This document shows, in pieces, positions 3,175-47,752 of a DNA stretch of 64,000 nucleotides. The DNA comes from Antedon bifida (Eukaryota > Echinodermata > Crinoidea > Comatulida > Antedonidae). Every line of letters begins with the position of its first letter. Position 1 is the first letter of the stretch. The stretch lies in assembly GCA_963402885.1 (NCBI GenBank), contig OY727103.1, positions 10,008,085 to 10,072,084 of the forward strand. The letters are read 5' to 3'. The translations under genes and the position numbers were made by a program. The notes beneath the pieces are model-generated. The model was given only the letters and a program-made list of their open reading frames with translations. It was not told where the DNA came from and made no database searches.

Positions 3175-6100
3175 CTTCCAATTGTTTTCCTTGTGCTCGC
3201 TTTGTTGATCCGCCGAAGTGTCTGTTGTGAAGCCCCAGCTGCTCAATTTAAAAAACATGACAAAGCCAAATATGAAGACTTAGATGATGGTAAAACTTTT
3301 GTACTTTAACAAATTACTTTTATAAAGCTTCTTATTTATCATATTGTAAAATTAAAATTTTACCAATTCATAAAATAAATAGAATTCTATAAAGTTGAAC
3401 ATAGATGTTCACAGTAACTATGTAAACAATAGACACTCTCGATCACTTTAAATACTGTATGATACTTCGCTTGGAAAACGCATCATTTGTTTCTCATTTT
3501 TATAAGTTTCACTTTGTGATTTAATTTTATATAGTAGTTATAGCTCAACAAATTAATAAAAGTAATATGTAACATAACATTGGTTTTTCAATTTGTGTCA
3601 TAGTATATATTACTACTGTGTGTTACTAATGTCCTATACATAATATTATCTTAAGCATATGATCTATCTTTACTCACAGCTGAACGTGATCTGTGTGTGT
3701 GTTACCATGATATATTTACCTCAGCAATTTGCTTTTAATGAGTAAAAGCTTTTGATGATCTCTAATGGCATCATTAATCTACATTACAATAGTCAATATA
3801 TCAATGCTCTACTACAGTTTCCTATATTATTATGTATGTCAAGTTTCCTACTAACATACTCAACTTAGTGTCTCCTGCCCATATCCCTCTCAAGATACAT
3901 GCATTTTATTGAGAATTACCCCCAAAAAAAACTTCAAATCACTGGTTAAATGGTGTAAAATGGTGGTTAGAAATACCCTATCACTGACATTTTTATCTTG
4001 GATGCAAAATAATGAGCAGCTTTTTTTGTTAGTGGTCAAATATTCAGCTGAAATTGCTGAAGTTTTGTTTTTATATCAACCTTATGACTTTGTGTGTACA
4101 TTAAATTTATCTAAGTAAAATATATATTAGCTTAACTGAACTTAATTATTGCATGAGGTAATACTGGGCAATCAAATACAACCATTAACACAGCAAATAT
4201 TTGTTAATAAATTTAACTTCTATTTCTGATAATTAAAGCTGTTCTGTTTCACCATATTGGTCAATTCAATACTAGTTGAATTTATTAATTATTTTCTTTA
4301 ATCTTATTTAAGTCAGTTTGATCATGCCATTGTCCCATGTACCCAAGTCATTAGAGAACATTTTTGAAAATGACATAGATAAACTGCATAGTTAATAAAG
4401 AAAAACATAAAATTTGAATGAAATAACTCTTCTTCTAGACTGTTGCTTTGTGAATTCTTAAACAATTACCTCTTTCAAATAGTGTTTTGCTATTGTATAG
4501 GAGTGGGCCATACCCATTGACAAGTGCAACAGCAATTGATAACATGTTGCTACTTTTTTACATAAGCCTTAAAATATTGCATGTTTTAGTTCAGTCGATT
4601 TCTATAGTTCTATATACTTTGTTTAAAACTGTAGGCTCTTGCTGCTGTTTAGTCTTGCTAAATGTTGTACAATATTATTCTACTTAAGATCTTCTGAATA
4701 ATAGGATATTTGTTGGCTCCAACTAACAATTATTTCTCCAATTTATTTTCAATATTTGTTCTTTTTACTATACATTGTAAATATACTGGGCTGGATTATT
4801 TTAGCTTATAAATGTATATTTTTACCATATCCAAATGTTGCATAATAGAACATATTGTATCTACCATCTACAGCACACCATCTAATCACATCTTTCTTCC
4901 ACAATAGAGCTTTGTTTTGAAGTTTGTTACACATACAATCCCACCCCAAATTTGTATCCAAAATTTCTTTGGACAAGAATCAACAAAATGAATACAAATA
5001 GAACACATATCACATATATTTTAAATACAAATCTCAATTTGTAGTACAGTATATAATAGGCCTATGTAATACTGCACACTTTGTAAATATACACAGCCCA
5101 TCAAATAAATATAGTCACTCCTAACTAGTCGATTTAAGAATATAGATTTCTCTAATAACATGTGAACTATTCAAATGCACGTATCTTATCACCTCCTTAA
5201 TGCACTAATGGGAATTTAATAGTACTATAAAATAAAAATATAGTGTATTCTTCTGCTTAAAGTACCTACAATTTTGTACACATAGAAACACATAGACACA
5301 CATATTTCCTGCATAATTTAGGAGTGTCTAAGTAAAATTTCCAGTACAAATTATGTTGAGCCAACTCCCAACCCATAACCCCTCAGTGGCAGTTTTCAAA
5401 TGTAGTTTCCCAGTACAGCTTCGGGTCATGCTGATAGGCCTACAACCCGACCCCAAACTCCCACCCCTTCCCATAGGTAAGTAAAATACTTACAATTCTG
5501 GTCAATTTGATAGCCTATACTGCCCCTAATTTTTTTAATGTAGTTTAAAACCGTTCCAGTACAATTGTTAACGAACAAACATCAAAAGTGGGAAAAGTGT
5601 TTTGTTTGTGACAGTGGCTGATGAGTGACAAGATGGCAGATAATGAACCATCTCAGTACAATTGCGGCCATGTTTATATCCCATATGTATAGATGCGTGT
5701 AATAACAAAACAAACAAATCTACAAACTCTCTCACTTATAATGTAGATATATACTTAGACACTCTTAAATTTGGTCATTTTTTCTCACAGAAAATTATGC
5801 ACATTTTCAATCTCCAGAATATGCCTTCTTTACATACCTTTTCAGATAGAGTTTATGGTTCTGTATCATGCACAGTGTACATATTTTTGTTTTATTTAAT
5901 CTCACTGCACTAAAAAATGTATATTTATGCAAAGGAAGAATGAAAACAATTTCAAAATTCCTAACAATTGTTATTATATTATTTTCTTTCTTTATAGTCA
6001 CAAACAAGAGTGAAATGAAAGAAGAAAATCTTGCAAGTGAAACAGATTCTATATGCTGTGGTTCCCCAAGATCTAGAACATTTGCAATAACCTTCCTCGC

Positions 6101-9100
6101 ATCCCTTATGCTCTTTCTGTTTGATGGTCTGCAGGTGAGTGTATTCAAAAGCTTTCTATACTTGAGTTCCAATCATGAGACTTTTTATGTTTTTTTGGTA
6201 AAAAATTAAATTAAATTTGAATTACTTTGTATCAAGTATACCTCCTTGATATGTGGTAGTAATACGACATAAGGCTGGAGTATGGTTGGCATATTGTACA
6301 CCTTTGTGTAGCATTGTTAACGTCACTACTACGTACTTGTGTACACCAGCTACATAATCAATCTTAACGACACAGAGAAACTCAGGTTGTGCTTGAGTAA
6401 AAATACATTTACCAATGTTTTTAATGTCACTATTGTATAGTAAATTTGATTTGCTGATTTGCTGAAAAAAACTACTCTCTGCTCTCCGATCAAGGTGTGA
6501 ATTGTTTTGGGTGAAAGAAAGTAGTGATTTTTGGGGAAAAATGAACTTGGGAATTTGAAATCAAGTTCTGGCAATAATTAAGATGACCATATTAAAAAAA
6601 ATGCCCATATTAAAAGAGAGACAATGAACGCTATACATGTGAACATGTTGGCATTTTAATCTGTGACTATGACTATGTAAGCATGTTATTCTCACTCTGT
6701 AAATGTGAACATACCCCAAAAATAATTGTCATTGTATGGCAAGCCATCTAACACTAAAACAGTATAATTGTAGAAATGCATTCATGGTCCTGCAAGTTGA
6801 CACATAATCAGAAATAATATTCATCTTTAAGACAACTATTCAATGAAGCATGACGTTAGTGCTATGTCCCTAAGCTAACCCATGGGAACTTTATGCACAG
6901 TTCTAATTAAAATTGTCATCATTTTTGCAAATGTTGTTTTTGATTTGCATGATAACATTATTTTGTGAAGCACAGAGGATTGGAATAAAATAAAAATAGC
7001 TTTTAAGTTTTAAGATTCAATATTATTTTTTATTTTTTTGGATAAGTGAAAAATCTCATTACATAATCTCATGGGATCATGCGTAATTTCTATGCTGTAC
7101 TTGTGTGATACAATATTGCAGAAACCTTTCTGTACATTTTTACAGGGGAAAAAGTTTTTATTACAAATACTCTCTCTTAACGATTCACCCAAGAGAGTTA
7201 GTAGATTGGTGGACCATAACAATATTTGACAGAATCGCAAATATATTAATGCTACTAAATTGTTCGCATATTTTATGTATCTCCTCCAAAACCACTGAAC
7301 GGTACGTGCTCACATTTGGCACACTGATATTTATTGATGAGCTGCACATGATAGGCTATGTCACTTTCCTGAATTTTAAGGATAAACACTAAAAAAAGGC
7401 TAAAAATAGCAGTAATTTGATAATGTTACGTCACTGTATAAACTACGCAATCTCCTCTGTTGTTTACCGCCATGGCAGGATCTACAAATACCATGCGGGG
7501 CCACCAAAAAAACAGTCTGTAGTCAATCGTATCGAATGATCGCATCGTTGAAGTTTAATTAATTACACCTATTTTTTTAACCGAATAATTTTCGTAAATC
7601 AGTGAGTAAAACGTGTGGCCACTGATATCCAATGCTTATTACGTTCGAGTTCGAATCCGCGACATGTGTAATTATTAAGTATTACCGCTTAAAGCTCAAA
7701 ATCGAATCTAGACCACAATGTAATAACAACAATTTTAAAAAATATACGAAATCTCACACAAAAAAAATTGCAAAATATAAAAAACCATGAAATAATCATC
7801 TTCATCACTTCTAATAATCTGACTCCCTAAATTGGTTCCTTGGCTTGGCGATGAATACAAAATGGCAGTCAATGATAGCATTGGATGGGTTGCTTCTCAT
7901 ATCCACAAACAAAACATCCAAAGCAAAACCAAGCATAAAATAGGAACATACAGCAGTAATTAGTGCTATTTTAGTAATGTCAATTTACTTATATGAATTT
8001 AAAAGAATCAAATCATTCTTTTTTTTCCCATAAATTTTATTTTAAAAAAAGACATTGCTTTTACAATCTAGAATAACCACAATTAGATATAGTGCAACAA
8101 AAATAGGTTCATTTTCCTTATGTACACAGGAGCCTTTTCAATTTGTCATTAGTATCAAATTACCTAAATCCCCTAGAAATGATTTACAGTGTTTATAACT
8201 AGAACATAGGCATCTGAAGAGCAATCAATGTCAATAAGAATTGCATAAAAACAATCTATCTAACGATTACAGTATTAATTATTCATTGTGTATAGTAATG
8301 CCCGTATTATTAAAAGTTTGTTTTTTTAAATATTAATTTTGATGAAAAGTCAGTATTTCTAAATCAGTAGTGTTGAATATTATATACAGTAGGCTGGTTC
8401 ATTTTTCTATTTAATTAACTTGAGTCAAAAGGTAGAACATTATGGTGTTAGCCTAAAGTAAAAGACTAAATTCAGATGCAAAAAATAAACAAAAACAACT
8501 ATATTACTAGATTTGAACTCTTCACTTTGACGAGTTAGTTATTCGCACGACAAACGCCACATGCACATCATACGTTAGAATATTACGCACAGAAAAAAGA
8601 TTATGCTATTATGACCTGATGAAAATAAATGTTATTGTGCTCTCTAATTTGTGTCTAAACAGTATACACTATATACTGTACTACATACAGTTTAGCATGG
8701 GTAAAATTATGGGACCCATGTTTTATTCAAATTTAAAACATGGTGACGTCATCAAAATAAAACATGAAGATAGCAATTTCGGAACGAAATTATCTGAGCA
8801 ACAACATATTGACGTGTTGAAGAAATCTGGACACGTAGAATATAGATGCAAGCTTATTTAAATGTGATGAACTAGGACGCAAAAGATGAAACGACTTTTA
8901 ATATTCAACTGGCCATATGATTACGTCACAACATCCGATACACAAAATGTTTACATGAATTCATATCTGCAATATTCTGCAACAACTTCCAGAAAACATT
9001 TTAATAATGAGTATCACTCTTTATTCTGAGGAGCTATAACACACTGAAATTTAGTGTAAAAATGAAAATAAGTGACCCATGTTATTCATACATTCGAACA

Positions 9101-12100
9101 TGATGACATCATCAAAATTAAAATGTTTGTAACTCCTACAAAAGATAATTGATTGAGCAAACAAATATTAATATCTGGGAGAAATTAAGTTGATGCGCTC
9201 TATTAAATGTGATGAGCTATGACAAAAGAGGCAAAAATCCTATATTCGGGTGGCCATATGATGACGTCATAACATCTGAGAGGTAACGCCTCATGTACAA
9301 GGCCGGCAGTTGAAATAAGATTACTTCAAAAAACATGCCCCAGTTAGGGTAGGCTTGCAATTGCATTTGGAAGATGGTGCTGGGCTGGGGCTATATCATA
9401 GCTTAGGCAGCGAACAGCGCTATAAATATTGGACTTGCGGTTTAGGAGGAGATAGAGGAACACATTTTTGGTTAGTGCTATTAAAATTTAGATAGATTAA
9501 AAAAGTAATATTAAGCATTGATTCGTTGATATTGATATTGCAATTAAGATTTCAAGTATTACAATTTATTTGAATTATTACAATAAAATGATAACAATAT
9601 TCTCAACAGGAAAAGGCGTTGTCAATGTCTTCTTGATTACAAACTCCATTTGTTGACAAAGCTGTTACAATTTTGATTACTCAAAGTGTGTTGAAATTCA
9701 TTAGGTCATCTTCTACAAGATAACAGTTAATTTAGTATAATAAGTGTGCATATTTTATGATATGAGTGTTCATTTTATGTTGTTATGACAACACCACATT
9801 GATGCATGTTTTCTATTTTCCTATTTAGTGGAATTAGCTTTTCTTACTGTTTGGTAACAATACAGTTGGTTTAATTGTTATTGTATCAGCTGTATTTGGT
9901 TGTTAATGACCTGTTGCAAACTGACCATAGATACATTGTCTTTTAGTAAAAGGAGCAAGATCACACTAAATGATACAAAGGATCGAAAATCCAATAATTA
10001 AACGAGACTTACCTGGAAGTTGAAGTTTGATGGGGATTCTATGTAGTCATCTTACACGAAAGGGATCACATGAGATGGTAGCGCACATGCGCAGCTTCAG
10101 ACTTTAAAGATTTACTGATCACGTCGCATAATGTATAAAAAAGGGCGGATGAGGGTGGGCATGTGATCCCTTTCGTGTAAGATGACTACATAGAATCCCC
10201 ATCAAACTTCAACTTCCAGGTAAGTCTCGTTTAATTATTGGATTCTATTACGTCATCTATACACTCCAGGGATCCCATGAGATTTTAAAGCAACGACGTG
10301 ATAAGTAAACACGAAAACTGTTTTGAAACAACTATGTAACTTTAATTAATAAGTTGACCTACAACTTCAAAACATTAACGGAAAAAACATCATGGTCTTC
10401 ATTAATGGTCTTATCGTAAAACCTAGCAAATGTACTTTCCGAAGACCACCCGGCTGTTGCTAGAATTGTATCCATTGGAACACCATTCTGCTTAGCTTTG
10501 GACGAAGCGGCTGCCCTGACACTATGTGGTTTAAAAACGGTAACATCAATGCCTGCCTTTTCCATGACAACCCGAATCCATCGGCTTATCGTGGACTTTG
10601 AAACAGCTTTAAACGGTTTAATAAAACTAATGAACAATTGGGAAGTATTACCACGAATACTCTCCGTCCGGGATATGTATTCTTCTAATGTATTGTAAAT
10701 ACATAACTTTTCATCAACTGTGTAACGGCTTAATACTACTTGTGGGTTAGAATAACCTGGGCGGCTTTGCTTTAGTAACCTCGAGGTAACAAATACAAAG
10801 CAATCGTCCTCTTTTCTCATCTCACTGAGATTGAGAAGATGGAGGGACTGGCAACGAGCTGCCAAGACTAATGACAAAAGCATGACACATTTCATAGTTA
10901 GGTCCTTTAAACTCAGTTCTCTAATAGGAGTACATAAACGTAAATATTGTAAGACTGGACGTACGTCCCACATACGTGAATACCTTGGGACTGTAGGTCG
11001 TAAGTTAAATACACCCTTACAAAATCTAACCACGAGAGGGTGTGAACCGATAGAATGTTGATGAGTCGACGAGCATAGTGCTGAAAGCGCTGATCTAGCT
11101 GTGTTAAGACAACTGTAGCTTAGTCCAGAGTTAAAAAGTTCGGATAAATAGTCCAGAACCTTGTTTATACGTGGTGAAACTGGATCCGTTTGTGATCGAC
11201 TACAAAACTGGAACCATCTGTTAATATAGACTGCGTACTGGTTTCTGGTGCTTGGACGCCATGATGCCATGATAATATCGGCTGCCTGTCTTGAAACTTG
11301 TCTTTCGAGGAATTCCCGGACACCAGGCATGCAATTAATTTCAACTTCTTGCGAAGTGGATGTAGCTGATTCAATGAAGGCATTATCAGGGTTCCATCTG
11401 TCATTGGTAACATTAAGGGATGAGCAATTAACATCCGTAGCATCTGGCTGAACCATGGTTGTGTTGGCCACACTGGAGCTATCATTATGCCTGTCGCCTT
11501 GTCTAATGCTATCTTCTGTAGACATCTTCCTATCAAACTGAAAGGAGGAAAGGCATAAAAATAGTAAGGTTGCCAATCTAATGTAAACGCATCTACATAC
11601 GTAGCTTGTGGATCAGGTCGCCAAGAAGCAAATTGAGACAATTGGGTGTTCAGACGTGAGGCAAACAGATCAATTGTCGGGCAACCAAATATGTTTACAA
11701 TACGTGAAAATATGTCTTTATCTAAATGCCATTCTGTACGATCATTGAATACCCGAGATTCATGATCTGCCTCAACATTCAGAGCCCCCGGCAAATGGGT
11801 AGCTGTAAGCCATATTTCTCTACTTATGCACCAAATCCAAATGCTACGAGCGACATTGTTGCATTCAACCGATCCGACACCACCCATATTATTAATGTAT
11901 GCTACAGCAGTGGTGTTGTCCGAAAGTATCTTCATATGTTTCCCTATTATTGTCTTTTCAAATGATTTTAAGGAATAGAATATTGCGAGCAATTCCAAAA
12001 CATTGATATGATGGGCCGCCTCACATGATGACCATCTACCCCCACTTTTATTTCCCTCACAGTCAACACCCCAACCTTGTGTTGATGCATCACATGACAT

Positions 12101-15100
12101 AGATATCTGAGGGTTACATTTATGGATACGTCGTTTTTCATGACACAAATTGTGGATCCACCACCTTAGGTCAAGTTTCATATCTGTTGAGATTGCCATG
12201 TGCATATCAAAATTACCCTTACAGCATTTGAGTGCCTCAATTTTAGCCATATCTAGGGATCTGTAGAACAATGGACCAAATTCCACTGCGGGAAAGCTAG
12301 ATACCATTAATCCGATAATTCTCGCAACTGTGCGAATGGATTTTGACTCTGAACCAGCGAGCGCAGAGCATTCTGTTACTAACCGCTCAACCTTCTCCTT
12401 AGATAAAGTTACAGTCATATTTACTGAATCAATAACAAACCCTAAGAAAGTGAGGGTTTGAGATGGAGTTATGATTGACTTAGTTCGGTGGTAAATAAAA
12501 CCAAGTTTATTAATGAGAGTGATTGTATCAGTGACATTCTTTTCACATGATTCGTAATCATATCCTACCAAAAATGAGTCGTCTATATAAGCCATAACTG
12601 TATGACCCATGCTGCGTAGAGACGCATAGACCGGTTTTAACAGTTTAGTGAACATTCGGGGAGCAGACGCTAGCCCATTCGGTAAGCAGGTATATTGAAA
12701 CAAATTACCCTTCCATATGAATTTTAGGTATTTCTGATGGTTTTCGGCAATCGGAACTGAATAGTAAGCGTCCTTTAAATCAACAGATGCCATGAAACAC
12801 CCAGGTGTAACCAGGCGCAATGCTGTTTCAAATGTATCCATTTTAAAATGGTGGTATTGTACTTGTTCATTTAAGCACTTGAGATTAAGAATCATTCTGA
12901 ATGACCCATCCTTCTTTGGTACCACAAAAATTGGAGAGATAAATTCTCCTTCACAATGTGTCGAATGTCTTATAGCTTTTTTCTCTAGTAATTTACTTAT
13001 TTCTGTCTCAATAATCGTCTCTTCTATGGCATTAAATACAGTCAATTTGGGGTAACCAAATTGCACAGGTGGTCTGTTATCTACAAACTCAATATGTGCA
13101 TGAAGTGCGATATCGATTATCCTCTCATCAGAGGTAATCTGTCGCCAATGATTTTCAAAGGATTTCAATCTACCTGCTTGGAAAAAAGTTTCAGAAGAAA
13201 TCTGTATACTTACTGGGGGTTCGACATGATCACTCGTCTCTACTTCTGTTTGTGAGACTTGACCCCCTTGTAGAAGTTTTTTGATTCATGGAAGTTTCCT
13301 CTTCCTCTACCACGGCCTCTGAATATGCCACGACCACGGCCTCTCATTCTTCCTCTGAATGTATGGAAGGATGTGGGCCTGAAGCCAGTACTGGCTGTAC
13401 TGATCTTACTCCCAGCTAGGTTAATATCTTGGATGTCCTTTACACGTTTAGAAACATCCTCACCAAACAGCTTGTCGGTAAATGGAACCGAAGAGGAGCA
13501 GAGGTGAGAGTAGTCTTTTTTAAGGTCGGGTTTCATACAGTCCCGCCTTCTTAAATTCAAATTACGATTTGAATTTCCTAGCAAGGCTAAAGCATCCATG
13601 CCAATGTCAAGGAGCTTCTGAGTATCGATGATCTCGGTACTATCTTTATGTCTTGCGATTTCATTGACCAAATAAGCCACGCAAGTCGCACCTTTTACCA
13701 AACCAGTTTGTACGGTTTGTAGCTTAGAGTCCAATGTACGGGTTTCTGGTCTTATTATATCCCATACGAGCTGGTTTACTCTAACACTAGCAAGACCCTC
13801 GCAATTTTCTGGCTTTTTGGTCTTTTTTGTGAGTTCGATATTCTTTTCCTCACTGGTACCCTCTCGAAAGAGGGTATTGACAATACCGGAAAGGTCTTTA
13901 TCAATATTCAAGCCACACTGGTCCTTATCCAGGAACTTTCCAGCCATATTTTTAAACACACTAAGGCTAGTGCAATCGTCTGCCCCCTCGGGGAGACTCG
14001 GCGGTGGGCTCAGTGGATCATCCACGTATGTGGGGTCGACGACCTCCACTTCACTTGTGTAATCATTATTGTCATAGCAGAGGTTCTCTAGGTTGCCCAA
14101 CCTGGAACTAAATTGCTCCTGACCTTGACGAATATCGACCAACATTTTCAAAATCTCTCCACTATCTACTGCTGGAGAAGACTTTTTATTATGCCTAACT
14201 TTCGATTTTTTACCACGATCAGTATCAGTGACCTTAACAGAGTCAGATGCTCTCTTCTTCGTATACGTACTAGCCGCGCTAGTACTAGGCCTAGACTGAT
14301 CGTCGTTGGCGTGTGGCGCCATCATCATAGCGTGGCCCGCGAATGCGGAGCCTGTTGACGTTGCACCCTCCAAATCGAGTGCAAGCACGTCTGACACACA
14401 CGTTTTGTTTATTGCCGAGTCGGCCATAGTCAAGAGTATGCAAGTTATTTTCTACAAATTATACTTACAATAGTAATAATAAAAATAGTAAAATAATTCT
14501 TTACACTACGTGTAAAATGCAGAAAACAATTGAAGCTGAAATAGCTATACCGCGTACAACTATTTTATGTTGCTAACTGAAGCTGCGCATGTGCGCTACC
14601 ATCTCATGGGATCCCTGGAGTGTATAGATGACGTAATAGAATCATGCATTACCTGCCACATCACCACTCAATAATCAGTGGTGTAGTGCGCAGTATAAAG
14701 CTGACCAGCGAAGTTAGCCACATTTTTATAGGATACTAGAATTAGTACCCGTCTTCAACGGGTGGGAGCCCTGCTGATTAACAAATTGCAACCAAGAAAA
14801 ATTCAATGAAAGAGTTGCAATAGAAATCTCATTAATAAAATGCATTTTAACAAAAATAAATACAGAACATTTTACACTATATTTTATATACACTTAATCG
14901 CCCGTAACATCTATATTAATTAGCTACACGAACCAGACTGTTGCAATTATGAGAGTAAAAGAACCAAATTTCCCTGACGAAAAATGGTCAACACTATTAT
15001 ATTTGGGGGGTATGGACTGTACCACTTTTGGCGACCTCATGAAATTGTGTTTTGCAACAGGTTTTTCTGATTGCTGAAAATTATTCTCATTGCAAAAATA

Positions 15101-18100
15101 CTAATAAATGTAGGGCCTGCAAACTTCAAATCTTTGGAAAAATATAACAGTATGATAAAGCGTACATAAATCATCCTATAAATGTTTATTATTACAAATG
15201 GAAGTGAATTAAAATAATCTATGACCACTTTATAATCTTGAATTCCATGTTAGGTTGCCTTTTGATGCAAAGGTATTTTTTAAGTCATAATTCAGTAAAT
15301 ATTTGGTTTATGAACTTTTATAAATAGCCCATAGCAAAATAGATGTTGAGTGCAACTTTCTGTTTTACTTTGGTCATGTTCACTGAGATATCTTTTTGAT
15401 GGATGCTATGCTAACAAAACGCACATAATTTTGGCAAAAAGCAGATCATAATGTAGTTTCTTTTACGGCCTCGGTAGTCTTACCATAAAACTCAAAAGCT
15501 AAGAAACTGAGAAAATGAAATGTTTTAGCTTAGCTCAGCCTAAAATATAACAATCAAATATTAAAATGTTTATAACTTTCTATCCTTTTTGCTAACATTA
15601 AAAATGATATAAATGTTGGAGAATAAATCTGTGACTCACAGCCTACTTAATGATAGTTTTGATTTCCTTCTCCACCAACTCCATTTTTCCCCAACCCTCT
15701 CTTTCCCCAACCCCCTCTTTCCCTATTCTTTGAGATGTAATTATATTAGTAAAAAACTTTAAAGGATTGATTGAATTTAACTTGGTTATACATTGTTGAT
15801 GTGTATGTTATTTATCATTTTAGGCAGCTTATGGTGGTTACATTTACACTTACGCTGTGAAGAGTATAGCAGACCTGTCATCCTCTGCAGGAGCTTACTT
15901 GACATCAGTTTACTGGGGTAGTTTTGCTCTAGGTCGCTTAGTGTCTATTCCTATATCAACGCGACTATCGCCTACCATGATGCTTTTAATTAACTTGGTA
16001 AGTTTTCTTATTTTGTTACATTTAATAATAATTTAACTATCTTGATCACTTCATACCATTAGAATATCTTTAAGGCTCATTTGAATTTGTTTAAAAAAGT
16101 TTAGTCCACCAGTAGATTCAGGATTCAGGAACATATGAGGCATGGCATCACAAAATTGGCGTAGTGTCCGAAATAGTAATTTTGTTAGATTTTTATATAT
16201 TTGTAATCTATCTTGAATAAGCTTTAAAATGAGTTATTAATGAAGACATACGAGTCACCTTTAGCTCAAGAAATCTTCATTTCGACAACAATGAAGTAGC
16301 GATGCCGATTAGCTGGGCCTAGCGTAGCCCATTAGCTGGGCCTAGCGATGCCGAATAGCTGGGCCTAGCGTAGCCCATTAGCTGGGCCTAGCATAGCCCA
16401 TTAGCTGCAGGGCCTAGTGTAGCCCATTAGCTGAAGGGACTAGCGTAGCCCATTAGCTGCAGGGCCTAGCGTAGCCCATAGCTGGGCCTACAGTAGCCAC
16501 TGATCAACGCAACAAGGTACTATGACAAAACTCGCCCATTTTCTCCTCAATAACAGCAAATTAGTTGAAACAATATCACTATATGGTACATAATATTATA
16601 TTTTATGTTATTTTTTTTAAATATATGTAGAGAATAACGACTTAATTCGCAAATGTTAACATATTATATATCGGCCAATCAGAGAGCGTCTTGCTGTTAC
16701 ATATTTGATATTACTTATATGATATTTATGCCGGTATACCCTAAAATCCACTGGCTGGATTTTTTTTGTATATTATGTTTCCATTTTTGTAACTTTGTTG
16801 ATGTTGTTTAAGTTTGATGTATACAGTATATTATTACTGCAATTCAATTTTTGTACCATATTTATATGTTAAATAAATATACCGAAATATATAAAAATCT
16901 GATCAAAACATTCAGATAAAGAATGAAGATATAATTGTTAATGGATGGTGTTTTAGCCAATCTTACATTTCTTACTGTATGACCCAGAAATATCATATGC
17001 TGGTCAATGTACTAATAACATTAAAATCATTTAATGATGCAAGTGAGAATAGGTAATAATTGACTGGATGTAATTGTCCACCCACACTTTCATTACCTTT
17101 AGCCGTTTAGTAATCGTTGCCCAATAACAGACACTTATGTTGCAATCGTGGGAGAAGTTTTAAATTTGTTTGTTAAAGATGTTTGAGATCAGTGCAATCG
17201 TACCAGATGTTAAAGCAATATTCACGTTTCAAGTGAACATCAAATGACTTAGAATTTGATTAATTATTTTTCAAGTTGATTTGATTGCTACAGTTTGATA
17301 GGCTATGCGAATTGTATTTGGTTTTAAAACGAAATATTACTTTGGAAATGTTCTCTCAGTCGGAAAGTTTAATTACAAAAAAATGTAAACTAAATGCAAT
17401 ATTATGTTATTAATGCCATATTTTTTTAATTTATTTACAATCTGTGGCATATGTTTGTAATAAAAAATGATTACAGTCACAATGAATTGTGTGTTTAGGT
17501 CCATATGTTTAGTTTATTTACATAGATTTAATATATTGCTACAGGTGTCTCATCAAACTAGCACCAGTAAAAATGATGGTGGTTAAGATCCAGTGTAAAC
17601 TGACATGTAGTCAGATGGCCCGAAATTATACTCCCATGTAGCAGTGCAGAAAACTGTAGATTGGTGCGGTTAACATGCTTGTCTTCCAATGCCAAACAAA
17701 GCCCAATTCTGACCAAGTGCCAGGGTTGTAACTCACAAATCTTTCAACTCCACTCCCTAATCCTCAAATGAGACTTAGTTTATAAGCATGATAAATTATT
17801 AATCATCCTGTAATTGGCAAGTTACTCGCTGCTGAATGCATATGAAATAATAATATAACATGCATAATATTAAACAAATTTGTTATTCAATGTTTCATAT
17901 TGAATGGAGAGGGTTCACTATTAAGGAGCTGGCTGTAAAAGAGGGTTTGTCTGAACCATAAACACCCCCTGCCTATAGGCATGTTAAACGACTCTTTTGC
18001 ACTACTAGTGTAGAGAATATGCAAATGCATTTTTCCTATTTCTACCTTCCAATCCCTTTCTTCAATAGGGTCTATTTCAGTTTCTACTTTTTGTTTTGAG

Positions 18101-21100
18101 GTGAAAAATTGCGTAACAAATCAGAGCTTAGAATATAGACTATCCCTTTATTAAAGAAAACTCCTGTAAAATGAAATAAAACTCAGCAGAAATTACATTC
18201 TACAATTAAAGCATCTACAAGACAGCGACCAACTACACACATTTTTAACATCAAAATTATTTAAAAAATAAGTATTGAGATAATTTAACAATTTGGTTTG
18301 GAAATATCTAAGTTGCGAATTTCACCAGGTAAGTATGTTCCCTTTAAATTTCATCTTAATGTCAAATATATTTAATATCAATAAAGTAATATTCTTTACT
18401 TAGATGTTTGCTAGTTATTCCATGATTCATTTTGGGAGGTCAGTTTCCCTCCCTGACCCCCATTCATGCTGGCCACAAATATCTACATCCTGACAAATGA
18501 TGCCCTATCCCATGGGAATTGCTCATTCTTCTGATATTTGTTGGTTATTGTATACAAATATAAATAATTCCTTGAATGGGAAGAATATTTAACTGATAAA
18601 CATTTATTATTTTTATTAAAGTCAACCAAAGTAATAAAAAAAACCTTACAAATTGCTCAATATAGTTTTGAGGCAAGGTTTAATTTAGTGCTGTTGATAA
18701 GCTGCCTAGTGTATGTTAAGCTTCCCTACAAGAATCAGGCAAAGTGCTCTAAGCTTGGATATACTATATACATTCTAAATGCATAATTTCAAGTTTTCCG
18801 CATTTTATTGTGAATGTTTTTTATGACAGATTATTTGACATTAGCTCTTCTTTTCTCTCCCTCTTCCTGTAGTTTAATTCATTCAAGCTTTTCATTGAAC
18901 CTGGTTGTTTAAGCAAAATACTTATACTGCCATCAATCATTTAGAACAATCATATTTATATACATATTATATTCTAGAGAATGAAACAGAAGCTTTACTA
19001 TATGGCCCAGGAGAATGTGAATGTTATCAATATTAAAGTTAAACAAGTACAAGATTCCTGATCTGGACAGATAACCATATATTTCTTTTACACTGCTAGC
19101 ATGATCCGTTTACTAAAAATGTTCGCGCTTTGCGAGACTTGTCTGTTGACCCCGAGGTAGCTAGAAGTATGATGTATGTGATGAAACGGAAAACCCTGTG
19201 TGGTGTGGTACAACGCGACACGTCATCGGTGTGTGGTGATTATGTAGCTTATCCTACTACTAGGGCGCCTATGCCTCCTAGGCTAAGCTTACTACACTAC
19301 TAACTATAAGGTATCGAACTGATTTGGGAACTTTTATAATTTTCTCACCATCGTCTTTGAAAGAGTTAGGCCGGTGGATTTACTACTATACACCATCGTC
19401 TTTATTTACCACAAATCACCGCTAAAAGTTTTTAGTGAGACATGGTTGAATGATTCCAGAGCATCATACATCATGTTTCTAGCTACTCTTTCGGGTCAAT
19501 AGACAAGTCTTGCAAAGACAACAGTGAAAACTCATAAGGTATATTTTGCTAAGCACACTTGACTTGACAACAATTTACGGCGACGGCTCTATGGCGATAT
19601 CGTAAATCTCGGAATTATTCTGAAATCATATGTATGTATGTATATGGTTCTCGGTATTCTGGAATTCTGATTATCTGTATTGCCTACTGTTCAAAAAGCA
19701 TCCCCTCTGGTGATGTTTGCAAAATGTTCTGCTTCTTTTCTTTTTGCAGTTTTAAGTATAAGTGTATGAATGAGAATACAACAGTTCAATGTTTATTTTC
19801 TAAATCTTTTCAGACTGGATGTTTCATTGCTGTTGCCGTTGAACTTAGTTTTCGTCATGATGCCCACGCTTTATTCATTTGTACCAGTATGTTTGGCTTA
19901 TTTCTCAGTAGTATATATCCCACAGTCATCGCATTAGCAGAACAATATATCCACATGACAGGTTAGTATATTTGATGTGATCATTAAAATGTGATTACCA
20001 AATGGAAACAAATAACTGCTTCTGTATCAATCGCAGTAGTTCAGATATTTGCTTGCAGGCTATTAAAGTGGAGACTGTTGGTTTGATTATGACTTAATAA
20101 TTTCCTGTGGGTATTATTATGTACAATGTACAAATCATATTAGTCCTCTTGAGTGGATTCTTTCACTACTATCTGTTTTTAGTTCTCACAGTGCTCTGTT
20201 GGTAGGGTGGGGATTTGCATTTTAATATCTATATTATAAGTGAGAGAATTTGTACGTTTGTGTGTTTGTTTGTTCATTATACAAATTTTTGTTTTGTAAT
20301 ATATGGGGTATCAAAATGACCGCAATTGTACCAGGAAAGTTCTAAACTATATTTGAACATCATCTGCCATCTAGGATCCAAGTTAGGGGCCAAAATGTGG
20401 TCAAAATGGCCTACTTTTCCCCAGTTTCGATGTTGGTTCGTTATACAAATTTCTATTTCTGCATGTAACCATACATATGGGGTATCAAAATGATCGCGAT
20501 TGTACCGGGAAGGTTTTAAACTACATCTCAAAGAGTCCGGGGATTTGGTGGGAGAGGGAGGTTGGAGGAGAGCGGGGTTGGGAGATAGGGTAGGAAATTG
20601 TTAATAGTATTTTAATTATCCCTGGGAAGGGCCTGGTATCACCATGACCAAAACTGTACTGGGAATGTTTTAAACTACATTTGAAAACTGCCACTGAGGG
20701 ATTATGGGTTGGGAGTGATGGCTAACATAATTTGTACTGGAAACGTCTTAAACACATCACCCAGTATCTGGGGTGTGTTGGGAGGGAGGAAGAGGGGCAG
20801 AAATACTGGCGTAATGAAGTATAACATGATTGGAATTGTACTAGGAAAAGTTACTACCTTTGAACTGTATAGGGGAGGAGTTAGGTTTGTTGATTGTGGC
20901 TGGGATGGTAAGAGGAGAAAGAAGGCTGGGGGACCGCAGTATCAAAATTAGATATTTTAATTATCAGCCAATATGACACCTATTCATTTACACAGTTTAC
21001 AACGTACTTAAAACATTTTGAAGCTAAAGTTGAATTGAAATTTGTCCTGGGAAGAATTTGTTTTTAAAAATGAGTGTGGGGTGTTATTGAAGAGGGGTGG

Positions 21101-24100: not shown

Positions 24101-27100
24101 TAGATGTTTTTACACTATTTGCTGAACCTTTTCTGTGGAAGTCAGACAGTACTATAATATTATAAACCTAATTTTATTGATTGTGAAACAAACCACAGCA
24201 TTAACATTGTTGAATCATTTATTAATACACACACTTCAATTGTTTTTCAGGATTTGTTACGAGCTGTGTTGTAATAGGAGCAGCATCAGGTGAAATGGCT
24301 TTCCCAGTTGTGGTTGGGCGAGTAAGTATTCATAAATAAATTATGTTGATTGTATGCATTAAGAAATGTTTTGATTGTACTTAACCTTCAATTAGGTTAT
24401 GGATATGTTCAGATTCATGAAGTTATGCTTTCGTAATGCAAAGTGTTCAGATTTGCTTAACTAACGCTTTCGTTTGAAACTGAAGTCTCACCGATTTGGG
24501 CACAATACATACATCTGGTATGCAGCAGTGAATTTGATTGGTTAGATATCAAAATCGTTTGTTGCATGACTTTCGTATCGTAAGCGGACTAGAGTATGAG
24601 TTGACGTATGACGTCATACTGCAAAAGTTGACCAAAATCATGCTGGCGATTGACTAATCTCACCTTGATTTTCTTTTTCTGTAGTAAAATGCATTTCAGT
24701 TAATTTAAAATTAACAGTCTTATTGAATCGTAGCCAGCATTCATTTTTCACTTTTCCAATATTAGCCTGCCGTAAATCCAGTGAATAACTCATTTCTCCC
24801 TTTTTGCAATCTGATTTTATACAAGTAATGAATGTTTATGAGTGTAATGGTACAAATAATGGCATGAGGTGAATGACGAAAGGTTATATTTTAACACGAA
24901 GCCGAGTTGATATATAACCTTTCGTCATTCACCAAATGCCACTATTTGTACCATTACATGAATATAAAATATTCATTATTTGTTTTATATAACATCTAAA
25001 TAAATTCCTGTCATTTGGATACACGTCAACCGTATCCGGATATTCACCCCCTGGACATTTATCCCCCGGACAACCACCACCCGGACAACCACCACCTTAG
25101 GACAACTACCCCTTTAGGACAACTACCCCTTTAGGACAACTACCGGGTAGTTGACCGGGGGATAGTTGACCGGGGGGTAGTTACCCGGGGGTAGTTACCC
25201 GGGGGGTAGTTACCCGGGGGGTAGTTGTCCTAAGGGGGTTGTTGTCCGGGGGGTAGTTGTCCGGGGGGTAGTTGTCCGGGGGGTTGTTATCCTAAGGGGG
25301 TAGTTGTCCGGGGGGGTAGTTGTCCTAAGGGGGTAGTTGTCCGGGTGGTAAACATCCGGGGGGTAACTGTCTAGGGGGTAGGTGTCCTAGAACCACGTCA
25401 ACCCGTACCCATGCCAACTCGTACCCACCAACTCGTACCAAAATTTTGGCTTACTCGTACCCAAAATTTTGGCTTACTCGTACCCAAAATTTTGGCTTAC
25501 TCGTACCCAAAATTTTGGCTTACTCGTACCCAAAATTTTGGCTTACTCGTACCCAAAATTTTGGCTCACTCGTACCCATCATGGGCGGGTCCGTACCCAT
25601 CATGAGCTGGCCCGTACCCATCATGGGCTGGCTCGTACCCATCATGGGCTGACTCGTACCCATCATGGCTGGCTCGTGCCCATCATGGGCTGGCTCGTAC
25701 CCATCATGGGCTGGCCCGTACCCATCATGCTTGTAGTAAAATTAGCCTAAATCACACAGCATTAAGACACACACAAATATATATATATATATATTTTCCC
25801 GGAAAAAAAGAAATCTTATGTAGGAGAATTTTACAGTAAGCGGAGGTATGCACTCTCAAAGTGTCCCACACCATATAGTCCAAGAGGATAGGAAAGTTTA
25901 TCAGCTAGGCTAGACTAGATCAGGTTTACAGGTTCACTTTTGTTCTGCCTAGGCCTATAAACAGTTATTTGATGAAATGAAATTCAGATAGCATCAGGTT
26001 TGGCGACAATGATATTTTGTCGGCTTTAACAAATTATAAATAAGGAAAGTACAAGTAAGGTTAAATTCTCATGGATCTTTATGACTCTTTTATTCATGTA
26101 ACTTACTTGGTACAACATGTACAATAATTATAATAAATAACAGTGAAATGGGATGGATGGCCCAACACAAACACTCGTATCAAGAATCCAACTCATCTGG
26201 GGACTTGTTTACTACTTTTTTGTACGCGTAATTAATAAATGCGTGGAGTGAAATTAGCCAATCAGAACTTAGTATTAAATGGCCTGCTACATTATTGAAA
26301 TACTAGATAGAAATAAATGATTTGGGCCATACCAATTTCTGTTACCAATACTTGTATGTATTTGATAACATCTTGGAATAGAACTTCCTTCACGTATAAC
26401 AATAATTGACACAAAAGAAGAAAGCAAAATGATGATGATGATGATGATGATGATGATAGCAATTGATGAGTTTATACCTATTGAATCATGAATATTTAAA
26501 ATTGATTATTGGAATTTTAAAATGGAGATTTTATTATTTGTCTACTTTTTTTCAGTTGTTCTTTGCATTCGGACCTCCAAGCTTCTTCATATTTTGTACT
26601 ATAGTCAGTTTTGTTGGTATATTTGTATACATTGTGCTGTGTTGTATAGGTCAATACCACATGCGCTCTCGTAAGTATTTCTTAATAACTTTGTTGGTAT
26701 TTTGCAAAATAGTAAAAAACTTCCCACAAAATTTCATTCACTAAATTTATACAACAAATAAAAATTGTATGATCAGTCAAATTAATTGTGTAACCTTTGA
26801 CCCTAGGTTTTAAACACTAAATGTATTTTTTTTATTGACCAAGAAATCAGCATAATCGTTTAAAATTCTAACAAAGTGGTCTGGGTTGACTTTAAATGTT
26901 TAAGATCCAACAATGAGTTGTTATTTATTATGCTAGATGTTAATGTTTTTTTTTAAAACTTTTATTCCATCAGTTTTCAAAGCCTCACAGGGTGCATACT
27001 TTTGGTGTCGGTCATGCTGCATCACCTCAAGTAAAGAAAGTCTAATACATGATAAAGCCAATTACTACACAACATTAGGCGACTCACGAGACGTTGTGAG

Positions 27101-36077: not shown

Positions 36078-37100
36078 TTAAGAAACAATTATTGGTTTTG
36101 TTGTGCTCGGAGAGAGCAGTACGGTGGGCGTAAGAGGTTGCATGGGGAGCACATGATGACCATTAATGACAGTGGGAAATTGGAATGTATTCAATGTACT
36201 CATGGATGGACTTAAAGTCATGGGACTTAAAGTATTCCAGAAGCTGAGAGGCAAAAGAGGGGTACCGTTCTGGCTAAGAAGTGGGCTAGCAATCATGATT
36301 GGTGTTCCAGTAGCTTGAGTTACACCAGGATACGACGTAACTGGGGTACTGAGATACATGCCAGAATACGAGGGCGAATCAACAGACAGCTGGATTGGTG
36401 TGGGTTTAATTCTTGATGCATAGGTTGTCATAGTTGTAGCTAGACTACCAGTACAAGTCATGGGTCTACCAGAGCTGTTCACTAACGTAGGTTCATTGCT
36501 CATTTTGGCTTCTGATGTGTATCCACTACGGAGTGCTAAGCTGACTGGTGTTGGACTGTATACGACAGAGTTCTGAGCATCATTTACTTTAAATGTTGGC
36601 AAAGTGCTTGTTGTCCAGACCATTTGTGTTGTATCCGAGGTGGTTAGTTGAGCTGTGGTCGACGTTTTTTGTTCACTAAATGTAGATTTCATTTCCCTGA
36701 CCTGAGATGGTCGAACAGAATCGCTTTTTCTGTCATGTAAACGGTCAGCTGTTGATGTCCTTTGTGGCTTTGCGTGCATGTCTAGACTTTCCATTTTCAC
36801 CTTGAATGGAATTTTGTTTTCTGTTTTCACGATTTCTGGAAATGACACAAACTTATATACGAACTTTTGGCCCATAACTTTCTTAATAATATTTTTGTCG
36901 TAGTAATACCGGAGCGCACGGCTTAGTTTGTCGTAATTCATGTTATTCTTATTCTTTTTAAGTCCCCATTGGCGTGCTACTTCTTCTGCATTAAGAAGCT
37001 TAAATTCTCCTTCTACACCCGTCCACGTTATAAGTGTCCCGTTGTGTTGATCCATTAACAGTTCTAACAGAAATTGCCATAATGTAACGTTGGTGTCCAT
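36078..37100 (-). CDS. ELK/TCF-subfamily ETS transcription factor
   Basis: This 340-residue nuclear factor would bind GGAA/T sites, normally with SRF, and activate genes on MAPK signalling. The N-terminal ETS domain (residues 5-86) has [26 protein letters not shown], and the recognition helix [20 protein letters not shown] with both DNA-contacting arginines. The C-terminal activation box matches [16 protein letters not shown] (287-299), then the FQFP ERK-docking motif (306-309), with several Ser-Pro or Thr-Pro sites. The start is the ATG two bases after a splice acceptor (AG at 37103-37104); the track-style longer start reads through the intron. It is shorter than vertebrate ELKs (about 400-430). 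The whole protein, ETS domain included, is in one exon. I could not place an SRF-binding B-box. Confidence 0.92.
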
Positions 37101-37649
37101 AGCTGGAAAGAAATTAAACAAATATTTAAGCTTTGGTATATTTTAGCCTTACAAAATCGTAATTATCAAATTTTGCAAGCTTTCAGTATTTAAATAAAAG
37201 TAGTTCCTTGTAAAATATAAAAACAACTATTGTAGTGCTTTGTGAATAAAGAGAAACATTAACAAATGCGTAGTCAATCGAGCCCAACAGCTACTTCCGT
37301 TATAATTACAAACAGGAAATATACTATACAATCTGTATACTGTTGGCGAAAAATTGGAACCATGTTCTCATGACTGTTTGTGAACGAGTATTTACAAGTT
37401 TAAATAACAACAAGCATTACTGTATCACTAGGCTTGCTTACTTTTTTGTTTCGGCGCGAACGTCATTTTCACATTTTGATATCCACTGACTGTTTTCATG
37501 TTTCTTTCATGTACTTCTTTTTTTGGGTTAAGCTTGCTTTCTGTAATTAAATTTATTGTATAGGTTAACTTTTTTCTGGTATTTTACATAATTTGAATTG
37601 TTATTTTATATTTGCTAATTCGAAAGAAACCATGTATACACTAACTAAC

Positions 37650-45688: not shown

Positions 45689-47749
45689 CTATGTTCCTAA
45701 CTTTACACTTATCCCATTTGTTTTCTTTCCCTTGTTAGAACTATCTTTTGCTATCCCATTTTTGTGTATGATTTCATCATTTCCTCCAGTTTCGAGCCTG
45801 CCTGGTTGTTGTTCATTTGGTGGTTCAACATTTCCATCATACCCCGCATTATTAAATGATGCAACTAGCGTCACATTCCTGTCATTGTCTCCATAATCAT
45901 GAAATCCAGTTGATGTTTCTGGCATATCACCCATGTTTGCAAACTGTGTTGTGTCGTCGGTAATCTTAAAATCATACTTAGTGAATTCTCTTGGCATTTT
46001 ATATCTCCAAATGATGACGAATATTGAAGCTAAAACAAGCAAAGTCCCAAGAAAGGTGGCAATTGCAGCGCCAATTAATTCATTTGTATGTTTTTGTTCA
46101 ATAGAATCCAACTCTTGGTCATTTCCATCAAGGCCTGTAGTATGTATCTGTTTACATTGATCATTTGTAGTGATACTTGGGCAGCCTCCAGTTAAATATA
46201 CAGAAACACATATCAAGTAATCTGTCCCCGAGACCAGGTTATCAATTGTCACTTCCTCTGTCTCAATATTGCTTAAAAATGCTGTTTCAATTGAATCTAA
46301 ATCACCAAAAACATTCCTCGTAACTGAATAACCAATTGCATTTTCTCCAAATGATCGAGTCCACCTTAGTGTAACAGTAGTGTCTGTCACTATATCTGTT
46401 TCAACATTAATTATCGCAAGTGGACATTGCTGTATTGGAGGTTCAGTGATCGTTCCAGAAACTGCCAATGAAAACTCTCTTGTGTGTGTACCTTTCATAT
46501 TTACTGCAGTACACTTATAAATTCCCTCATCCGTATAAACTACAGAATTGATAATGAGTCGATTACTAACTATGTATATGTGTTGGTCATTATTTGTTGT
46601 GGTTATAGGCATCATATCCGGTCCAGTCCATTCATATGTTGGCATAGGATCTCCTACAGCCTCACAAATCAATATCACTGATTTCCCCAAATCGACAGAG
46701 CTACCAACAAAGTTTTCAAACTGTAATTTGTAGATCCAAGGTTCACATCCAAATTGCTGCTCATCAACATTTAAAGCAATCGAATTTCTGAGAAATTCAG
46801 GATCGTGACATCGCCATGGATAGTCTGCGCTGATTGCATTGAGCCGCTCCCACGTGCGAAAATCATGCAATGAACACGTACAGTTCCATTGATTATCTTC
46901 TAAAAGCAAGTAATTTAAGTTTGTCAAATCCACAAACATTTCTCGTGAAACAGTCCTTAGGTAATTGTTGTTTAAACTCAAAACTTGGAGATTGGTTAAC
47001 TGTGCAAAAGTATCTGTATTTAATGATTCTATTTCCATGTTTGAAAGGTACAAATATCTTAATTGCAGCATTTCCTTAAAGATATTGGCTGCAAGATGTC
47101 TGTTTTGATTTCCACTGATATCCAAATGAATAAGGTTAATAAGATTTTTGAAAGTATTTTCATTAAGGTTTTCTAGATTGCAGTTGGGTAGGTAAAGATG
47201 CGTGAGTTGGGGAGAATCTTGAAATGTTTCCGGCTCAATCAAAGATATATCATTATTATGTGCTTCAAATATTTCCAATTCTCGAAGATTTTCAAACATA
47301 GATTTATCAAGTGTTGTTAACTTATTCTGACTGACTTTCAAAACTTTCAGTTTTAAAAGACTATTCAACACATTGTTAAACGTAGTTATCCTATTTTGTT
47401 GTATTTCTAAGGTTTGTAGGTTTTGCAAAGCATCAAACGCACCATCCTCAATCTCTTCAATGTTGCAACTCTTTAAAGATAATCGGTTAAGATTTGGAAC
47501 ATGAGCAAAAGAACCAACCGTGAGAGAGCTTAAATCATTGCCATCAAGAATTAATGTATTTGTGTATTCTGAAATACCTGTTGGAATGGTGTTGAAACCA
47601 GCAGAAGAACAATCAACTATCTGTGCTACATTATTACAAGAACACAAGTTTGGACAATTTGATTGTAGTGTTGCAGGTGGCAATGTTGTCTCTTGAGCTG
47701 CTGATAACGAGCATATCATAAGTAACATGCAGAGATAGAAGCTTGCCAT
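45689..47749 (-). CDS. LRR-Ig-FN3 single-pass membrane receptor
   Basis: This 686-residue type I surface protein belongs by layout to the LRR-Ig-FN3 class of neural adhesion and signalling proteins (LRFN/SALM, LRIT); the exact orthologue is not recognised. A signal peptide (residues 1-18) precedes an LRRNT cap (CPNLCSCNNVAQIVDCS, 32-48). About nine leucine-rich repeats follow (54-285), then a LRRCT cap (NCTCSLHDFRTWERL to FGCEPW, 289-338). An Ig domain spans about 345-431 (ILICEAVGDP, DEGIYKCTAVN) and a fibronectin III domain about 442-540. A helix (558-582, IGAAIATFLGTLLVLASIFV) and a 104-residue cytoplasmic tail complete it. The start is the ATG just after a splice acceptor (AG at 47753-47754), so a 5' non-coding exon lies upstream. 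The coding part is intronless. Confidence 0.9.
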   Translation of the reverse strand: MASFYLCMLLMICSLSAAQETTLPPATLQSNCPNLCSCNNVAQIVDCSSAGFNTIPTGISEYTNTLILDGNDLSSLTVGSFAHVPNLNRLSLKSCNIEEIEDGAFDALQNLQTLEIQQNRITTFNNVLNSLLKLKVLKVSQNKLTTLDKSMFENLRELEIFEAHNNDISLIEPETFQDSPQLTHLYLPNCNLENLNENTFKNLINLIHLDISGNQNRHLAANIFKEMLQLRYLYLSNMEIESLNTDTFAQLTNLQVLSLNNNYLRTVSREMFVDLTNLNYLLLEDNQWNCTCSLHDFRTWERLNAISADYPWRCHDPEFLRNSIALNVDEQQFGCEPWIYKLQFENFVGSSVDLGKSVILICEAVGDPMPTYEWTGPDMMPITTTNNDQHIYIVSNRLIINSVVYTDEGIYKCTAVNMKGTHTREFSLAVSGTITEPPIQQCPLAIINVETDIVTDTTVTLRWTRSFGENAIGYSVTRNVFGDLDSIETAFLSNIETEEVTIDNLVSGTDYLICVSVYLTGGCPSITTNDQCKQIHTTGLDGNDQELDSIEQKHTNELIGAAIATFLGTLLVLASIFVIIWRYKMPREFTKYDFKITDDTTQFANMGDMPETSTGFHDYGDNDRNVTLVASFNNAGYDGNVEPPNEQQPGRLETGGNDEIIHKNGIAKDSSNKGKKTNGISVKLGT

Positions 47750-47752
47750 CTT

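Follow-up and report, generated by a model that had tools for sequence, protein, structure and literature searches.

A DIRS1-like retrotransposon in an intron of an MFSD4-like gene of Antedon bifida, with a recurring splice-donor-like motif and a candidate frameshift site

We analyzed a window of 64,000 nucleotides from the crinoid Antedon bifida (assembly GCA_963402885.1, contig OY727103.1, positions 10,008,085 to 10,072,084 of the forward strand), in which a whole DIRS1-like element of 4,655 bp, running from ATT to ATT, occupies positions 9988–14642 of the minus strand. Inverted-repeat analysis located its left terminal repeat at 14577–14642 and its right terminus at 9988–10100, the latter being made up of the common repeat core (10053–10100) and a right extension, all on the minus strand. 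The two copies of the core (10053–10100 and 14577–14624, 48 nt) are 92% identical. An internal complementary region on the same strand (10160–10283) pairs with both ends: the arms 9988–10072 and 10160–10244 match perfectly over 85 nt, and positions 10241–10283 pair with the left end without mismatch (43 of 43), these being the outer 43 nt of the arms 10241–10292 and 14592–14643, where the match with the left end extends one base further, to 14643. The junction within the complementary region reads TTGG-ATT-CTATT and both element ends are ATT, which together place the element at 9988–14642. The inverted terminal repeats and the complementary regions overlapping on a three-base junction that a DIRS1-like element requires are both present. 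Split direct repeats, a trait of PAT and Ngaro elements, were not found in 9000–15600, where the two short direct-repeat families lie away from the element ends. An earlier note on this stretch, written from its letters, had described both inverted repeats and the complementary region, and its range (9989–14643) was essentially right in extent, differing from the ATT ends by a shift of one base.

Three overlapping frames are open on the minus strand, at 13240–14451 (403 codons), 11165–13285 (706 codons) and 10359–11612 (417 codons). The first open reading frame (ORF1, 13240–14427 from its first ATG at 14427) encodes a Gag-like protein of 395 amino acids with an RG-rich C-terminus; it has no Pfam match, while tblastn found relatives in 18 of 24 fetched contigs at 28–35% identity, and an AlphaFold model of ORF1 alone was uninformative (mean pLDDT 35.7). 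ORF2 (11165–13285, minus strand) carries a reverse transcriptase (RT; RVT_1, PF00078, 3.3e-19, over the cut-off) with a YIDD active-site box, followed by RNase H (RT_RNaseH, 2.1e-4) and a putative Dam-like methyltransferase region (Dam, 1.5e-3), both under the cut-off; PCIF1_WW scores about as high as Dam over the latter. The methyltransferase region is conserved in five aligned rows, in which D399, E431, D456 and D507, presumably the catalytic RNase H residues, are invariant. ORF3 (10359–11612, minus strand) is a tyrosine recombinase (Phage_integrase, PF00589, 5.8e-9, over the cut-off) whose homology to many relatives begins near codons 92–101 (ATG 11328–11330). Pfam matches to the three ORFs at E up to 0.1 included neither a DDE integrase nor an aspartic protease. 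The translations bear out what had been noted before, namely that all three ORFs are open, that the recombinase keeps its R, H-x-x-R and Y positions (AARCQ, HSVR and FYDK) and that the RT keeps its DD box. A search of IMG/VR with the RT alignment returned one match, at 32%.

The element sits antisense in a 9.7-kb intron (6135–15823) of a plus-strand gene. A host exon at 5991–6134 (plus strand, 5' limit tentative) ends in CTGCAG/GTGAGT at 6134 (the slash marks the exon boundary), and the next one, at 15824–16000 (plus strand, 3' limit approximate), follows TTTTAG in phase 0. When a human MFSD4 sequence was used as the tblastn query, it matched 15827–16000 (E 4e-12), 19817–19963 (E 8e-4) and, weakly, 6006–6161 (E 0.09). 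The exons ending in DGLQ and beginning with AAYGGY share phase 0 and are neighbours in the MFSD4 homologue, which places the element within a single intron and agrees with the earlier description of an antisense DIRS copy in a transporter intron. We take the host to be an MFSD4-like transporter gene from the tblastn scores; the joined exon peptides gave no match in Pfam or PDB searches.

We then compared the element with the rest of the assembly (315.6 Mb in 27 contigs). The COX1 on contig C27 translates best with AAA as Asn, ATA as Ile, AGR as Ser and TGA as Trp (table 9), as judged by eye against known COX1 sequences, a mitochondrial code that points to an echinoderm or relative and does not suggest a mollusc. 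A 1,001-base DNA probe retrieved itself and two stretches of ~165 bases at 68–70% identity. The RT protein search, in which 63 of 757 candidates were scored, gave at least 65 matches including the element, the others being 31–50% identical and the best long one 47%; the recombinase search gave at least 101, again including the element, with 100 of 171 candidates scored. Other short pieces were matched by the terminus (the best at 79–94% over 47–126 bases), and a probe from the end of gag found one broken fragment (C8:19545138-19545632) with 26 mismatches in ~500 aligned bases (~5%) and internal deletions, so that the family of the element seems to be older in this genome than the present copy. 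The relatives fall into other DIRS families, labelled A, B, I1, I2 and I3, with RT and recombinase homologous to those of the element; we refer to the element, A, I1, I2 and I3 as the five lineages. RT identity to the element is 44% for A, 44–47% across A and I1–I3 and ~33% for B. The earlier statement that whole DIRS copies are uncommon does not hold here, as family A includes at least one whole-looking copy, on C9, with open gag-pol and recombinase frames, a complementary region and both ends. Family A counts over a dozen copies (L006–L015 and others) with the same ORF layout and a spacing of the terminal motif described below of mostly 245 bases, a uniformity that, with several fused gag-pol frames, suggests recent amplification. 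Family B (L045–L050, L068–L071) has open frames of up to 1,420 codons at its recombinase matches.

Internal evidence leads us to read the element as young, a lone, undamaged copy beside several other DIRS families: its 85 and 43 complementary bases contain no mismatch, and no stop interrupts 1,425 codons, which under neutral decay sets a 95% bound of ~1.5% substitutions (three expected nonsense events over that length). The recent insertion proposed earlier is thus favoured by the perfect complementary region and the open frames, while the argument from a functional host gene lends it no support. We therefore regard the locus as a complete, potentially autonomous DIRS1-like retrotransposon recently inserted in reverse orientation in the MFSD4-like intron, with a probability of about 0.85 from its sequence. 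Several points weigh against this. Neither DNA nor protein searches found a near-identical copy, which bears on whether the present copy is active; the RNase H and methyltransferase matches both fall under Pfam cut-offs; and gene conversion inside the hairpin could also keep the complementary region perfect. The relatives in the assembly are all diverged or broken, as the earlier note had listed for an old copy, and would suit an old element intact by chance or a domesticated locus, but with a perfect complementary region and every frame open we consider this very improbable.

The same trinucleotide recurs at the ends of the relatives. Among the 14 right ends read in the five lineages (leaving out one further match that is a complementary-region copy), 12 are ATT and two AAT. 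Both AAT ends belong to family A, in which six ends were read. The complementary regions of the same two copies read ATT, the outcome predicted where the target supplies one of the trinucleotides, and the two AAT ends look target-derived. Against this stands one family A complementary region that carries TTT rather than ATT.

This anatomy resembles that described for DIRS1-like elements in parts of PMC3266345, where ends are most often ATT, the right side bears an extension, and the two complementary regions share three bases. According to the same parts, the mollusc elements LgDIRS1 and AcaDIRS1 likewise have ATT ends, no left extension, a short core and a right extension, and their complementary regions of ~39–45 and 86–88 bases compare with 43 and 85 bases, and a 48-base core (92%), in the present element; those parts make no mention of a splice-site-like motif or of slippery heptamers for either. 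Dictyostelium DIRS-1 shares the order gag, RT-RNase H-methyltransferase and recombinase, the inverted repeats and the complementary region (parts of PMC5633606 and PMC4482531), whereas its ends are TTA and its repeats far longer (parts of PMC3266345). PAT and Ngaro elements likewise combine a tyrosine recombinase with an RT, with split direct repeats in place of the inverted terminal repeats that alone are found here.

Retroviral-type Gag-Pol frameshifting uses A AAA AAC or T TTT TTA heptamers followed by a stem. Relative to ORF1, ORF2 is in the -1 frame, opening one codon ahead of a candidate slippery heptamer, A AAA AAC, in the gag phase (13276–13282, minus strand). A possible stem, GGGGGT/ACCCCC (13215–13267, minus strand), lies 8 nt past it, and the downstream fold gave p values of 0.037, 0.023 and 0.10 for 50-, 70- and 90-nt windows. 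The gag-pol junctions of nine relatives were inspected (L039–L044 among them, L042 and L043 being dropped from the set because they have no recognisable gag). T TTT TTA is in phase with the presumed gag frame in 7 of 9 junctions, representing three lineages: I1 on C11, C13 and C12; I2 at C8:27974378 and on C7; and I3 at C8:16149952 and C8:26153200, in the latter of which the gag frame comes from an ORF without a gag match. The N-terminal RT match lies in the -1 frame at C8:16149952, C8:27974378 and C8:26153200. As in retroviral-type frameshifting, the element, I2 and I3 combine a heptamer with a spacer of 6–8 bases before a stem, a likeness of sequence.

These features make it probable that -1 frameshifting at A AAA AAC yields Gag-Pol, although the relatives also hold evidence to the contrary. 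In the I1 copies on C11 and C13, the -1 ORF yields to an RT that shares the frame of gag, and in the C11 copy a stop interrupts the -1 frame shortly past the heptamer; the RT is in gag's own frame on C12 and in the +1 frame on C7. We take these frame departures to be indels in damaged relatives. Downstream folds reach p values under 0.05 only in some windows of the element and I2 (for I2, 0.05–0.20 depending on the window), those of I1 and I3 being not significant. In synonymous-codon shuffles an in-phase heptamer arose by chance with P of 0.33 for the element, 0.12 for I1, 0.30 for I3 and 0.45 for I2; the product, 0.005, overstates independence because the I lineages may have inherited the site from a common ancestor. 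In the gags of I1, I2 and I3, in-phase heptamers also occur beyond the overlap, or two of them within it. Moreover, -1 shifting is not general here: a single frame spans gag and pol in family A (961–1,137 codons, on nine contigs), and at 5 of 6 family B loci the RT occupies the +1 frame relative to the upstream ORF, the sixth having it in frame with that ORF but past a stop. Family B shows that other routes to Pol exist in this genome, but reinitiation or another such route appears unlikely for the present element, whose ORF2 opens just ahead of the heptamer and lacks any methionine upstream of the RT domain.

The termini share a second feature, a 35-nt motif found in the terminus searches (9997–10031, minus strand) that contains the 5' splice-site consensus CAG/GTAAGT, with 10013 as last exon base. 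Its inverted copy in the complementary region (10201–10235, plus strand) has the same donor on the strand of the host gene, with 10219 as last exon base. When 9988–10400 was used as the probe, the motif and its inverted copy matched family A at ~97% identity, against a poor alignment elsewhere in the terminus. The pattern ATCAAACTTCANCTTNCAGGTAAGNCTCGTTTAAT, composed after the element, A and I3 had been seen, had 72 genome matches with up to three mismatches, compared with 0 for a reversed control, and 28 inverted pairs 83–247 bases apart; as family A copies make up most of these matches, families rather than copies are the independent units. The donors read CTTCCAG/GTAAGT in the element, CTTACAG/GTAAGT in A and CTTACAG/GTAAGC or GTAAGG in I3, which have the motif in common, and GAACAG/GTAAGTT in I1 and ACTTAG/GTAAGTA in I2, recognisable forms with indels that ATCAAACTTCANCTTNCAGGTAAGNCTCGTTTAAT missed. 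In all five lineages the motif is followed by CTCGTTTAAT, 5–6 bases and ATT. Four family B hairpins with unrelated flanks read CCAG/GTAAGC (twice), ACAG/GTAGGT and ACAG/GTAAGC, so that the consensus occurs in the 3' hairpins of all five lineages and at the four B loci read. Scored with a simple table of frequency weights and no shuffle control, the donor in the motif ranked first within the scanned stretch in four of five lineages and second in I2.

On the plus strand, TATAAA (10134–10139), 84 bases before the inverted donor, and a G-rich box (10143–10159) form a candidate rightward, antisense promoter at 10134–10159. A G-rich box of the GGGCGG or GGGTGGG type lies upstream of the inverted donor in 13 of 13 sequences from the five lineages and four B loci, a tally made by eye and given with no chance estimate. 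The terminal repeats of the element, A, I1 and I2, otherwise unalike, have in common an GCGCATGCGC-like palindrome, which we assume to be NRF-1-like, and an ATCTCA box.

Our leading guess is that the motif may provide the donor (U1) site at which a short first exon of an opposite-strand RNA ends. That a working 5' splice site has been kept by selection across deeply diverged families, for an antisense first exon or for a circle-dependent recombinase mRNA, is a tentative proposal, its splice role being read from the motif. Alternatively, the recombinase or an accessory protein may act on these bases as its DNA site, with the splice-site likeness a by-product, and we give this about equal weight: the motif lies near the crossover (at CTCGTTTAAT, 5–6 bases, ATT) in the five lineages, occurs in both places that encode the circle junction and, at 35 bases, exceeds what a splice donor needs. 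Family B, however, repeats only the donor-like core, ~40–50 bases from the hairpin arm's outer end (the B element ends being approximate); donor positions -4 and +6 vary among the element, A and I3; and I1 and I2 keep AG/GTAAGT despite indels beside it, all of which fits a recombinase site less well.

A further alternative, which we consider improbable, is that the right-terminal donor acts only in a circle or tandem, where it precedes the leader, and is spliced to an acceptor near the recombinase start, so that recombinase mRNA needs the circle. In the linear element the donor lies past every possible internal acceptor, and besides the high donor ranks the best acceptor, scored with the same weight table, falls within ~210 bases of the estimated recombinase start in all five lineages. 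The acceptors nevertheless favour this scheme only weakly, because their distance varies, as does their frame, and because part of the pyrimidine tract is accounted for by PPF codons in the methyltransferase motif; a sense promoter upstream of the donor is likewise hypothetical. Splicing from a leader donor to the recombinase acceptor within the linear element was unsupported as a common route, though it may still occur: the leader donor of the element scores just 6.3, against 10.0 and 8.4 for donors located between left end and gag in I3 (the comparison covered these two, the left ends of I1 and I2 not having been located).

With an antisense first exon, the element might work as follows. Sense RNA would start in the left repeat and give Gag and, by -1 frameshifting at A AAA AAC, Gag-Pol. 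The RT would copy the RNA, with the internal complementary region templating restoration of both ends, and the circle would close at an ATT junction; the recombinase would then cross the ATT of the circle with a target ATT, so that the inserted copy has an ATT on either side. A promoter for opposite-strand RNA may also reside in the right terminus, with a 5' splice site just downstream, by analogy with Dictyostelium, in which either DIRS-1 repeat can drive a reporter and antisense RNA is ascribed to the right one (parts of PMC4482531). The rightward RNA would cross the complementary region, its first exon ending at 10219, and splicing would remove antisense RNA from the coding region, or U1 might aid elongation.

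The element itself is an ordinary, well-preserved DIRS1-like copy, and what it adds is the recurring donor-like motif, which could be new, and the probable -1 frameshift. A search of the open-access literature found neither frameshift nor splice-site features for DIRS elements and no match for CAGGTAAG; subscription papers were outside its scope, and no absence from print is claimed. An undamaged copy beside several DIRS families made the shared features of the ends visible, and the expression of overlapping DIRS genes and converging promoters seems little studied. If the splice-site reading is true, joining 10219 to 15824 would provide the host gene with an alternative first exon, and in its antisense-exon version antisense RNA over the element genes would be spliced away. 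Both the donor-like site and the candidate frameshift site can be checked directly and cheaply in existing RNA data.

The intron flanks at 9200–9287 and 14896–15228 have at least 39 and at least 56 further short dispersed matches, respectively, at ~69–94% identity, and are probably other short repeats. Elsewhere in the window, repeat blocks at 25000–25850 are readable as repeated peptides in several frames. Two single-frame ORFs lie on the minus strand at 36078–37142 and 45689–47791, which from their translations we take to encode an ETS (ELK-like) protein and an LRR-Ig receptor, respectively.

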